From contig NC_003283.11 in NCBI RefSeq assembly GCF_000002985.6, forward strand, positions 10,292,001-10,356,000: 64,000 nt of DNA. Reading direction: 5' to 3'. The notes beneath the pieces are model-generated. The model worked only from the letters and a program-made list of their open reading frames with translations. It searched no databases and was not told where the DNA came from. This document shows positions 54,772-60,967 of this stretch, in pieces. This stretch comes from Caenorhabditis elegans. Taxonomy: Eukaryota > Nematoda > Chromadorea > Rhabditida > Rhabditidae. Positions within the stretch are counted from its first letter, which is position 1. Each line of letters opens with the position of its first letter. The position numbers and the translations under genes are program-made.

Positions 54772-57700
54772 CTACTTCTTTCTTCCGAATAAGATTCCCT
54801 TGAATTGTCCATTTGCAGTCCTCTCCTTCAAACTACGAATCTTCTGATCTATTGATCTCTGAAAATATCTAAATTTGTGACTTAAAATAAATCTACAACG
54901 AACCTTATCAGACAGAATTGGAACGAAGAATCGTTGATCCTCGACTTGGTAAGGGACAGCCGCTCCAGCTTCCTCTTCCCAATATTGGTTCTAAAATAAA
55001 AAATATTCATAAATATATTTTTCAAGGTTTCACTTCCTACTAAAAGCTCAATTTCCTCACTTTTCAAAAATATCACAAAATTTTTAAAATCAACACAAAG
55101 GGTTCTTTGATATTGTGATTTTGAATATTTGAAGTGTGATGAAATAAATGTGCCAGAGAATTTATCATTTTGTGGTTTATGAGCAGTCCAGTTCATTGTT
55201 TGATGTTAATCAAATAGATCATAATGGTCTTATATCATACATCGTTTTATTTTTTTTAGAAGAGTTTCGCATTTCAAGAAATGTAAATTATACGCTATAA
55301 GGTATTGTGTTTCCCAAACTAAAACTCAAACTAAATCGTCTCAAAGTTGAATTTAATTTAGATTTCACTGAAAAGAAATACTTCAACCGAGAACTTTCAA
55401 GTAGGCAAAATGATCAAGATGTAGGTTAGTAGACCTAAATTCTTCTGTGATCGTCCCGGTTACACTGCTTTCTAGAAGACGCTAAACCTAATTTTTTGTA
55501 ACCCTGGATGCAGATTTTAGTATAATGGAAAAAATCCTCATCAGTTTCTCCAACGTCGTCAAAACTTACCACGCGTTTTACTCCGAGGTTTTATAATAAG
55601 GTGATTATTTTCTTACAGTTGTTTTTCCTGACGATATTTGTTAAATTTTAATCTTAAACCCATGGATCAACTTTACTAAATGATCATAGATGATCAGAAC
55701 ATATCAAAAACATAAAGTTATAATGATATATAATTTAGAAGACTACACAATACGATTCCCACGTCATTTTCTATAGAATTCTTCAAGACTCCCAGAACAA
55801 CAGAAAATTATACGGAATTTGGTATAACTCAAATAGACTTCTTAAAACTATGCAAAACTTAGCTCAAAATAGCTAGAATGGCTTCACGGCTCAAATGTAT
55901 ATATTTTTGAGAATTTGAAGTACCTTCCGAAAAGAACTAGCACATTAACAGGCTTCATGGCATCACATACGTTGAATCATAAAAGTTTAAGACCTACTTC
56001 CCACGATACAAATTAAAGTTTCTTGGAAATTCTCACTACGTCTGAAATCGTGGGTGGAAAGTTGGTGAGAAGCGGAAGTGAAAAATGAAAAGAAAGTTAT
56101 TAAAAATAATTGATTTTAAGGTTTATTTGTCTATTTTCAACATGCTACTGCTTTCGGACCAAACATCCGGCAACAGACACTTCCTAAACATAAAGGTCTT
56201 ATTTTGCACGTGATTCAACATGATATGTTTCCACTGTTTCTGATTTATTTTGGAAACAAATTCTGAAATATTTGACTCATAAGGTCATATTCGTGCAGTT
56301 TATGAAACCAAAAAGATTTTTCAGCTGTTTCTTGCAACTTGGGCACTTTTGTTAGATCAATGACGTGAATGATGTAGAAGTGAATACATCTCTTTTTTGG
56401 TTTTTAAATATTCTTAGAATAAGTCACACTATATGGTAATTTTCTAGAGGTTCTTTGTCTTCAACTTGAAATAATACTTCATTTTGATAAATGGTATTAG
56501 AATAAATTTCATAAAAGTTTTTTGCAAAGATATAATTTCGTTTTGAATTTGTGAAGAAACTCAGATCCCAGTATAATTTTACATTAATTGCTTTCTTCAT
56601 TAGGTTTATACTAGTTTGGTTGAAAAAGTTTATACTAGAAAAGGTTGAAAAATATGATTTTTTTTTTCAATGTGGAATATACAATTCTATAGGGTGATTT
56701 GAATACAACTAGAAGATTTATATATCTTCTTGGAATTTTTAAAGTCCTAGATTTTTTAAAAATAAAATATGACGTCATGAAAACATATTTAGGGGAAACT
56801 ACGATATAAAACTACTGTATTGCTAATTTAGTGACTAGGTTTTCTTTGAGTTAACTTCTAAGACGAGCTCATTGCTTTGCGTAGACGTCTATATTTTAAT
56901 TATTCTGTGGGAAAAGGAAGAAGCACATACATTAAGATTGGATTTTCCAGGTGAAATTCGTCATTACTCTCGAGCGACATTACTATTCAAAAAAGCTAGG
57001 CAAGAAAGCCGTTCAAATTTTTACGTATTCGTGTTATTACTCTCCAAACCCTCACAATTCTGAAAAATTCAGAAGCACATGAGCCAATTTAAATATGTTA
57101 ATCACTTTGACATAGAATCATCTGTCCCACTTCCCCGTAGGTAAATGAAATCACAATTAATATGCAGGTGAAAATGCTAACGATTTCCATGCAAACTACA
57201 ACCACGTCAATTGAAGATCGAAGTTCCATTTTGAAATGAAACTAAATGCGACTACAATGATAGAAAAGGATTAGAAATTTTGGAGAAAAAATATGATAAT
57301 TCTTTAGAAATCCTTGATTGGAATTATTGTCATGCAATATAAATCACAGGTTATGTGACTTTTGATAAATTGAAGATTTCATAATTCCAGGAATACATCT
57401 AAGAATCCAAAAATCATTTACTATATAAAAAGCGCTTATTCTGTGTGTCCATATTTTGTAGTCAATGTAGTCTTTGTAGTCTGTGAAGTTTTGGCTTCTG
57501 TGGGGATAGTGAGTTGGGGTTAGTGTAGGGATATAGTCGGGGTACTGTAGTGGTACAATAGTGGTAAGGTAGGAATACTGTAGGGTTACGGTAGTTTCAG
57601 AAAAATAAGATTTCAGCCCCAGAAGTCGGGGGCCGCGCCGGAGGTGCGGTCCACGGCTGGTAGTATTAATAATTAAAAATGACAAATTATTTTGATTCTT

Positions 57701-58122
57701 CTTAATATTTTTCTTTCTCTAAATAATTGTCGTAAATAGTTTCGTAAGGATTTCATCATTTTAAAGGTACACGTGCATTCTTTCGGTGGTTCTCGACACG
57801 ATCTCCATAATTTTTTATCTACCGAAAGTTTATCAAGTTTTCCATTCAAGACTGAAGCATATGAATTTCTACATTCCAAATTGCACAAATGGCAAGAGTT
57901 ACCAAAAAATAACGCTTCCAATCAAAAACTTTTGGCTTCTAGAGATTTTTTCTTCAAAAGTAGTACTATATTCTGAGCTTTTTTGCAAAAACAAAGTTAA
58001 AATAAGTTTAGCTTTTTATAATTAAAGTTCTTCTCCATTCTTTTTTTAATGAATAAAACCTGTACCTGTGCAAAAACCGTAACGAGAATTGAGACGAAAA
58101 TGACAAAAAGCCGGCAATTCAT
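54772..58122 (-). CDS. Small secreted amidatable peptide precursor
   Basis: A 76-residue precursor in three phase-0 exons: 58066-58122 (19 codons), 54904-54990 (29) and 54772-54858 (28 plus stop). Exon 1 is a signal peptide, MNCRLFVIFVSILVTVFAQ. Exon 2 is an acidic spacer starting NQYWEEEAGAAVPYQ and ending LSDK. Exon 3 begins RSIDQK, so a dibasic KR site lies exactly at the exon junction, and ends KGILFGRKK. Gly followed by basic residues at the end is the classic signal for C-terminal amidation. Processing would therefore release one peptide of about 23 residues, SIDQ...FKGILF-amide. This is the layout of a neuropeptide or peptide-hormone precursor. I do not recognise the family. The 3 kb first intron and by-eye joins are the main uncertainty; exons 2 and 3 are the firmer pair. 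Confidence 0.65.
54991..58065 (-). other. Long first intron of the peptide gene
   Basis: About 3.1 kb separating the signal-peptide exon from the rest. It holds no clear extra exon. An 82-codon frame at 57673-57921 with a Cys-rich middle (SCREPPKECTCTF) is the only stretch with some coding look, but its splice sites do not fit. G-rich quasi-repeats and a GC-rich block lie at 57490-57662. Confidence 0.45.
57490..57662. repeat. G-rich quasi-repeats and GC-rich hairpin block
   Basis: 57490-57600 carries loose repeats of GTAGGG / ACTGTAG / GTAGTGG words on the plus strand. 57619-57662 is a GC-rich block with CAGCC / GGCTG at its ends, CCCCAGAAGTCGGGG inside and CCGC...GCGG, able to fold. It stands out sharply in AT-rich intron sequence. 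It may be a transposon end or a worn repeat; no class assigned. Confidence 0.4.
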
Positions 58123-58617: not shown

Positions 58618-60967
58618 TTACTCGTCTCCAGCCTTGCTCTTCTTCTTCTTCTTTGGCTTTGGAGCATCCTCGTCAACCTCAGCTTCAGCAGTTGCAGTGA
58701 CAGACTCTTCAGCAAGACGCTTGGCTTTCTTGGCAGCCTTCTTCTTCTTTTTGATGACCTGAAATACAATTTTTAATTGATTGTTTCCTTAAAAGATAGA
58801 TCATGAGTTTAAAATGAGAGAAACCCAGCTAAAAATTCTTCAATGGATAATTATATCGCATGCAAGCTAAACGGCCGAATTAAAACAATTTGCCCGCATT
58901 AAATACATGCTAAATAGGAAATTTGCGCAAAACTGTACCTTCTCCTTAACCTCAACGGCAGCTTCCTCGGCCTCCTTCATGACGTCAATGTTTTTCTTTG
59001 GAACAGTTCCGGAGGTGAAATACTCAAGTCTATCCTCAACCTGTTGGCGAAGGAATTCTCCATATGTCGAAACTGGAGTCTCGGAGAAGCAATCCACACG
59101 AGCAGCAATGGAGCACTTGTTAGCAAGATATCTGGACACACGACCCTTGTTCTTGGTTCCAGCTTTTCCAATGAAGCTGGAGTGGAAGAGAAGTCCATAC
59201 TTTGGAGTGTTGGCTGAAAATGTACCAATTTCAGAAAAATCATAGACTCGAATATGACCGAGTGCAGCGAATAAAATCTTCAATAGAAAATAATTTTGCA
59301 TGCAAGCTAAACGGCTGAACTAAAATCATCCACCCGCATTAAATACATGCCATCAATTAATGATACATTTTTCATGACTTACATCTGGTCTTCAAGGCAC
59401 GGAAAAGAGCCTTCTCTGCTCCGAGGATTTGGACAGTGGACGCTGGATACTTGGCCAAGTTGGTCAGCGAACCAGCATGCGAGATCAAGCGAGCACCAAC
59501 TTGTTCTCCGATAAGAGCACTGAGAGAAGGAGCACAGTGGTCCATACGATCTTTAATGTACTCGTGAAGTTGTTGTCTATACTCCATGAGAGAAGAGACA
59601 CGAGCGGCGAATCTCTTGATGTTCTCAAGATCGAGATCGGAAATATCCATTCCCATTGATGTTCTGGCCGCTTCGATGATCTGAGCGGTTTTCTCGGAAT
59701 CATTGTCAAGAATTTCTGAAAAAGGAAAGAATATTTGTGGGACACACAAAGTGACCGAAAACATCAAAACATTCTCGGTGTCTGGTTGTCTCTATGCTTT
59801 ACCTCTCATTTTACTAGTGAACTTAACAAAATGCTAGTCCCCCGGCTTATAAGAGAGGTTACCCAAAATCTACATTTTGAACTATAATACTTACCAAGAA
59901 TCTCATTCTCGAGGTTCTCATTTTCAGCCATCTTGTTTCTGTCCAAGATAGCGACAGCAAGGCGAGAGTACTTGTATTGATCTGGAGCCAGACGGAAGAG
60001 CTCTGGATAATGGTAAGAGTACCATTCACGGATTCTCATTCCAAAAAGATTGATATCCTTGTCCAACTGATCGAGAAGGGCAATCGATTGAATAACCATG
60101 TTGTCCACACGATGCACATCGAATTTGACCTATCAAAAAACATTTAGAGAAAAAAGCGCGATCGAGGTACGCACCTTCGAACGAGAGTAACTATGACCGA
60201 GAGAAAGCTGAGCTTTCGATAAGGAGTGATGTGGGAGATTTTTGGCCAAACGCTCGAAATGAACACGAGTACCACGCAGAATCTAAACTCAAAATATGTG
60301 TTTTCGTCATCGGTAACAGATTCAGGTAAACTCCAAAGAGTTTATTGTGAATCTTCACGTTACCTCGGTGATAACACCTCCGAAGACAAGCTTCAGATCT
60401 GGGAACGCTTCAGTAAGCGAACCCGCAAGCTTCGAGTCATTGATTCCAAGCACAACGTGTTTTTTCTTTTTTGGAAGCGACTTTTGAAGAAAATTAGTGA
60501 GATCAGGGTGGGCGAGACCTAATAATTAAAATAATTACTCCCCATCAAAACTTATCGGTCTTTGTTACCTTCAGAGATGGAGTTGCAGTTTTCCAATGCA
60601 GCTTCGGTGTTTTTGAACGGATCAAACGAAGCAAGCTCAACGATTTGCGAGAACTTGTATCCATCAGCATGAGCGGCATCGACCTGAAAATGCGTTAATT
60701 TAAGCACTAAACTGTGGGACATACGAAGTGACCGAATATATCACAACATAATCGGTGTCTGGATGTCTCTATAATTTTCCTCGCGTTTTACTAGTGAACT
60801 CAGCAAAGGCTAGTCCCCCGGCTTATAAGCGAGGATATTTTAAAAATACTTTTTTCGAGCGAACGTACCTCTTGGAGGATAAGACCAGCATCATCAAACT
60901 CCTTAATCTTCATGAGAGCGTATCCAGCTGCATGCTCATAGAGCACGAAGTGGGGAACTTCCGACAT
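58618..60967 (-). CDS. nol-56: NOP56-type box C/D snoRNP core protein
   Basis: A core protein of the box C/D snoRNP, which guides 2'-O-methylation of rRNA in the nucleolus. Seven exons; the first is 60869-60967 ([20 protein letters not shown]), the stop is at 58618. Parts in order: NOP5NT domain with [23 protein letters not shown] region ([20 protein letters not shown], then the coiled coil with [18 protein letters not shown]); the Nop RNA-binding domain ([72 protein letters not shown]); and a Lys-rich KKKKK tail. YGLLFHSSF and the tail distinguish it from NOP58. Four long introns each hold a candidate snoRNA, while two introns of under 60 bases hold none. The symbol is from recall. Confidence 0.92.
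58779..58910 (-). ncRNA. Candidate intronic H/ACA snoRNA, pair 2 copy b
   Basis: Lies in the last nol-56 intron, sense to the host. About 132 nt. The first hairpin is closed by GCATG/CATGC with CGGGC / CGGCCG inside. A hinge GATATAATTA contains ATATAA (ANANNA). A second hairpin follows, and ACA three bases before the proposed 3' end. Its first hairpin is nearly identical to that of the copy in the preceding intron (CCGTTTAGCTTGCATGC). The second hairpin is weakly supported. Confidence 0.45.
59218..59350 (-). ncRNA. Candidate intronic H/ACA snoRNA, pair 2 copy a
   Basis: In the fifth nol-56 intron, sense to the host, about 133 nt. The first hairpin has the same GCATG/CATGC closing stem and TTTAGCTTGCATGC side as its partner. 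The hinge is AAATTA, the second hairpin has ACTCG/CGAGT, and the ACA box lies three bases from the proposed 3' end. That end is only about four bases from the 3' splice site, which is unusually close and lowers confidence. Confidence 0.45.
59733..59860 (-). ncRNA. Candidate intronic H/ACA snoRNA, pair 1 copy b
   Basis: In the fourth nol-56 intron, sense to the host, about 128 nt. Hairpin 1 is closed by ACCTCTC/GAGAGGT, the hinge is AAAGCA (ANANNA), hairpin 2 has ACACCGA/TTCGGT inside GACA/TGTC, and the RNA ends CCCACAAAT with ACA three bases from the end. Loops match the copy in intron 1, for example AAGCCGGGGGACTAG and TTCACTAGTAAAA. Confidence 0.65.
60710..60836 (-). ncRNA. Candidate intronic H/ACA snoRNA, pair 1 copy a
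   Basis: In the first nol-56 intron, sense to the host, about 127 nt. Hairpin 1 is closed by CCTCGC/GCGAGG; the sister copy has CCTCTC/GAGAGG at the same place, a compensatory change. Hinge AAATTA. Hairpin 2 is closed by GACAT/ATGTC with ACCGA/TCGGT above. ACA lies three bases from the end (CCCACAGTT). Internal loops, the places where target RNA would pair, are conserved between the two copies. Confidence 0.7.

Follow-up and report, generated by a model that had tools for sequence, protein, structure and literature searches.

A candidate amidated-neuropeptide precursor gene with a 3-kb first intron in Caenorhabditis elegans

As generally understood, neuropeptide-like (NLP) precursors combine a signal peptide, a spacer, a dibasic cleavage site, an amidation glycine, and a cysteine-free mature peptide, and all of these features are also present in the gene described here. 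In the SIFamide precursors of arthropods, the peptide directly follows the signal peptide. C. elegans processes its neuropeptides with a proprotein convertase and a carboxypeptidase encoded by egl-3 and egl-21, respectively (PMC10077061, excerpted text). Two NLP genes, nlp-59 and nlp-69, could be placed from the 20-base qPCR primers given in the excerpted text of PMC12803089; exact primer matches, one for each primer, lie at V:14.97 Mb for nlp-59 and at 20.09 Mb for nlp-69, so neither is the present gene.

Read as a raw three-frame translation with its exons left unjoined, the nlp-59 locus (V:14,967,001-14,976,000) shows a hydrophobic leader frame, KR sites, and, in the last exon, a C-terminal peptide followed by Gly-Lys-Lys-stop, a layout comparable with that of our gene; its reading frame ends KRTNLKRLVILSARGFGKK-stop. 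In the nlp-69 locus, read in the same way, a leader and dibasic sites can be seen, but there is no ending of glycine, basic residues, and stop. The likeness to nlp-59 is one of layout: the mature peptides are unrelated in sequence, as 64% of shuffles reach their score, and that of nlp-59 ends in SARGF-amide. Distant kinship of the precursors was considered and rejected, with 6% of shuffles as high and with KR and Gly-Lys/Arg shared by construction. For the nlp-69 stretch against our gene, 83% of shuffles were as high. Separately, we observed that the nlp-59 end, TNLKRLVILSARGF-Gly-Lys-Lys-stop, resembles the C-terminal end of insect allatotropin, MMTARGF-amide (0 of 5,000 shuffles as high).

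The gene lies at V:10,346,772-10,350,122, on the minus strand of a stretch of 64,000 nucleotides of C. elegans chromosome V (contig NC_003283.11, positions 10,292,001 to 10,356,000; here, the window), in which all positions below are counted unless a chromosome is named. A sequence-only reading had proposed three exons of whole codons that spell a signal peptide, an acidic spacer, a KR site at an exon junction, and a basic peptide of about 23 residues before GRKK, behind a first intron of 3 kb. Our examination bore out each of these points. The three exons encode a product of 76 residues, every exon length (stop codon counted) is divisible by three, and the junctions are phase 0; the Lys of the KR site is the final codon of exon 2 and its Arg is the first codon of exon 3, and 23 residues were counted between KR and GRKK. 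Measured lengths and positions are collected in Table 1. Neither donor 2 (GTTCG) nor acceptor 1 (TTTTAG) follows the strongest consensus of C. elegans splice sites. No ATG occurs between either candidate trans-splice acceptor and the start codon at 58122. Intron 1 also carries a dispersed repeat. Of 653 first-look candidates for further copies, 40 were scored; apart from the repeat itself, the matches listed comprise 39 at 91 to 99% identity and one at 87%.

Table 1. Features of the candidate precursor gene (window coordinates)
Feature	Position	Strand	Description
Exon 1	58122-58066	minus	57 nt; signal peptide MNCRLFVIFVSILVTVFAQ; start context AAAATG
Intron 1	58065-54991	minus	3075 nt; CAG/GTACAGGT ... 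TATTTTAG/AAC; GT...AG borders
Exon 2	54990-54904	minus	87 nt; acidic spacer NQYWEEEAGAAVPYQVEDQRFFVPILSDK
Intron 2	54903-54859	minus	45 nt; AAG/GTTCGTTG ... ATATTTTCAG/AGA; splits KR between codons
Exon 3	54858-54772	minus	87 nt including stop; encodes RSIDQKIRSLKERTANGQFKGILFGRKK = R + SIDQKIRSLKERTANGQFKGILF + GRKK
Predicted mature amidated peptide SIDQKIRSLKERTANGQFKGILF	54855-54787	minus	Between KR and GRKK
Poly(A) signal AATAAA	54663-54668	minus	103 nt past the stop codon
Candidate SL trans-splice acceptors	58190-58184 (TTTTCAG); 58159-58153 (TTTCCAG)	minus	Just 5' of the start codon
Dispersed genomic repeat	57430-57690		Inside intron 1; at least 41 matches including itself, on six contigs

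We consider it very likely that the locus is a protein-coding gene whose product is a small secreted prohormone, namely a neuropeptide-like (NLP-class) precursor that is neither an RFamide nor an insulin. The proposal of an amidated-peptide precursor draws support from the gene anatomy, the codon usage of exons 2 and 3, the signals in the untranslated regions, and the similar layout of nlp-59, whose last exon closes with Gly-Lys-Lys-stop; nlp-69 has no such ending. The predicted peptide is flanked by dibasic sites, KR before it and RKK after it, and the terminal Gly-Arg-Lys-Lys-stop would supply the amidation glycine. Membership among the FMRFamide-like peptides was rejected in the absence of an Arg-Phe-amide, the C-terminal end being Ile-Leu-Phe-Gly, and the product is not an insulin-like peptide: it has no paired cysteines, its sole cysteine being residue 3, within the signal peptide.

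The best reading is a single-copy neuropeptide-like precursor that likely yields SIDQKIRSLKERTANGQFKGILF-amide, with amidation and expression deduced from its features. The mRNA would probably be SL trans-spliced just 5' of the AUG and then undergo two cis-splicings, and the signal peptide would direct the product into the secretory pathway. A prohormone convertase of the EGL-3/PC2 type would probably cleave behind the KR site and at the RKK of the C terminus. EGL-21, of the carboxypeptidase E type, would then trim off these basic residues, leaving a terminal glycine that would be converted to the amide to give SIDQKIRSLKERTANGQFKGILF-NH2 (computed M 2647.4922). Shorter amides, such as TANGQFKGILF-amide, are possible through cuts at single basic residues. 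Release would presumably be from dense-core vesicles of neurons, and the peptide would act on a G-protein-coupled receptor.

The gene might instead encode a real small secreted protein whose basic C-terminal peptide has a non-neuronal role, for example as an antimicrobial of the epidermis or intestine. The mature peptide is indeed basic, with five Lys/Arg residues against two acidic ones, and the nlp-29 group of the C. elegans nlp set is regarded as antimicrobial. We judge this improbable nonetheless: an acidic spacer with KR and GRKK is classic prohormone anatomy, and nothing points in particular to a membrane-active helix, since the peptide's helical hydrophobic moment does not exceed that of its shuffled versions (38% are as high).

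The assignment of the signal-peptide exon bears on a further alternative. Exon 1 encodes 19 residues with a hydrophobic core mean of 3.4, a signal peptide by a rule-based call. A stretch of 5 kb upstream offers 39 ATG-to-GT combinations of compatible phase. The three beginning at 58122 exceed all others in hydrophobicity, and of the 15 most hydrophobic combinations listed, the modelled exon 1 has the top donor score. It sits 3 kb from exons 2 and 3, and the length of intron 1 leaves room for these two exons to be real and to be joined to another first exon. A second hydrophobic ATG exon is present at 57229, but its donors are poorer (scores of 1 to 2 versus 3) and its core is less hydrophobic. 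Alternatively, the gene could be the downstream partner in an operon whose upstream member is the same-strand neighbour, a NOP56-like gene with a Nop domain, presumably nol-56/K07C5.4; the AATAAA of this neighbour, at 58491-58486, precedes the candidate trans-splice sites by only about 300 nt. The N terminus and the expression would differ from the model in either event, although operon membership by itself would leave the encoded protein unchanged. We regard this pair of arrangements as very unlikely.

Several other features of the surroundings were observed. Only about 300 nt (58486-58190) separate the candidate gene from the poly(A) signal of its NOP56-like neighbour, a distance compatible with an operon (SL2). 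The introns of that neighbour apparently hold the H/ACA snoRNA ceN101 twice, at 59733-59860 and 60710-60836 on the minus strand. Domain matches elsewhere in the window are to Slu7, zf-PARP, Actin, and aldo-keto reductase; together with Nop, 5 of 5 stretches given found a match. At the left window end, two collagen-like frames with Gly-X-Y repeats occupy 1-2575 on the minus strand. A tRNA search of the 64-kb window found none.

Codon usage was scored as the log-odds of a coding model, trained on 18 long open stretches of the window (2,920 codons) picked by length and not by annotation, against the triplets of intron 1. Exon 2 scored 15.4 bits, a value reached by 0 of 4,000 intron samples, and exon 3 scored 6.2 bits, with 0.5% of intron samples as high. 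Exon 1 is not singled out by this measure, since its 0.3 bits are reached by 11% of intron samples and its own third frame scores 0.1. Read in the two remaining frames, the joined exons scored -25.8 and -17.6.

We also scanned both strands for three-exon chains in which a signal-peptide exon is followed by a middle and a terminal exon. Such a chain had to show acceptable splice signals and phase-0 junctions, contain a dibasic site, and close with Gly-basic-basic at the stop; the thresholds were fixed after the candidate was known. The present gene is the sole chain in the 64-kb window. Among windows simulated from a third-order Markov model, 16 of 6,000 held at least one chain (0 of 400 in an earlier run), and 96 of 6,000 did so when one basic residue after Gly sufficed. 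The simulated rate corresponds to about 5 chance chains per 100-Mb genome, so the pattern by itself is no proof of a gene and further evidence is needed. The same scan of twenty real 10-kb stretches of this genome returned 0 chains; these stretches are short and thus under-sample long first introns. A chance origin of the three-exon chain is unlikely. That the locus yields no expressed product, being either a dead gene or a set of open stretches brought together by chance, is the least credible of the alternatives and scarcely to be entertained: the expected number of chance chains, the indecisive codon usage of exon 1, and the late-fixed thresholds speak for it, but the codon usage of exons 2 and 3, a frame unbroken over three exons, the signals in the untranslated regions, and the empty control stretches speak against it.

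The earlier reading could not place the peptide in a known family, and we agree as far as Pfam, the PDB, eleven hormones, and nlp-59 and nlp-69 extend. The 76-residue product has no Pfam match. It matches no NLP precursor in sequence: a protein search of its own genome at E ≤ 10 reported no other match, in six frames read without introns and with first-look candidates alone scored, so diverged relatives could be missed. It also differs from NLP precursors in general in carrying only one putative amidated peptide. A PDB sequence search with the mature peptide returned no chain at E ≤ 10, and weak PDB matches to the whole protein (E values of 0.87 and 1.2) were dismissed as meaningless. The sole other genomic site found to encode FKGILFG within one exon, at chromosome I 8,056,420, was rejected as a paralogue; its frame continues into a long hydrophobic run resembling a membrane protein, and no dibasic site follows the glycine. 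When the pattern was relaxed to G-I-L/F-F-G-X-X, where X is a basic or similar residue, 29 sites appeared (14 forward and 15 reverse, this gene included), against 7 for the reversed control. Two of the 29, X:3748960 and IV:12076389, were read in the DNA and set aside, with stops nearby in frame. A peptide that has no detectable relative makes a weaker case than one from a conserved family would.

The eleven hormones were scored against shuffles. Peptides of the orexin, allatotropin, CRH, ELH, and VIP types share an amidated C terminus with our peptide as predicted. Scores were not above those of shuffles for orexin-B (43% as high), allatotropin (18%), CRH (21%), VIP (24%), DH31, PDF, NPY, and secretin; 6% of shuffles were as high for ELH and 4% for SALMFamide-2. 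An orexin-like ending, suggested by the GIL shared near the end of orexin-B, was rejected on its score, and membership in the orexin/allatotropin group was likewise not accepted, similarity staying at the level of chance. SIFamide gave the best score among the eleven peptides, with 0.27% of shuffles as high, which is not significant enough after 11 tries for membership to be assigned. Its C-terminal FNGSIF compares with FKGILF here; beyond the seven C-terminal positions the two do not align, and our peptide would end in ILF-amide, not SIF-amide. This shared type of ending may be the sole lead among the eleven hormones, if it is even a lead.

Whether the gene already bears a name is a separate matter. 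Most expressed C. elegans genes are already annotated, and a WormBase gene model probably exists at this locus as well. The earlier-numbered nlp genes of chromosome V presumably encode other peptides. They include, in the excerpted strain table of PMC10077061, nlp-9, -13, -24 to -31, -33, -34, -42, and -46, and the same table puts nlp-58, -59, -69, -70, -73, and -80 on chromosome V. It is possible that nlp-58, -70, -73, or -80 is this gene, and the same holds for other named neuropeptide genes. Many nlp genes are described in PMC8764417 and PMC9881375, and the excerpted text of these papers contains no match to ours. Excerpts of PMC7615469, PMC12667811, PMC8515059, PMC3524798, PMC11703107, PMC9524666, PMC13142642, and PMC9882198 contain no sequence that identifies the gene. 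The protein strings and the word GILFamide gave no text match in the open-access literature, in which nematode peptide lists stand mostly in supplements. We take the cosmid name K07C5 to belong to this locus, and no mention of the gene names K07C5.9 to K07C5.15 was found in open-access literature text. K07C5.5 is not this gene, being listed as an epoxide hydrolase in the excerpted text of PMC2246285.

The observation is real and the interpretation of its kind is sound. Should the gene already stand among the nlp entries, this work would do no more than confirm its gene model. It is possible, though on present evidence doubtful, that this is an undescribed C. elegans neuropeptide gene that founds its own ILF-amide family, perhaps restricted to Caenorhabditis, and whose product is the ligand of an orphan peptide receptor. 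The C. elegans peptide-receptor map serves as the reference for a wireless connectome. Receptor screens and the lists used in targeted peptidomics would lack any additional ligand of this kind, and a real unlisted precursor could therefore fill an orphan-receptor gap.
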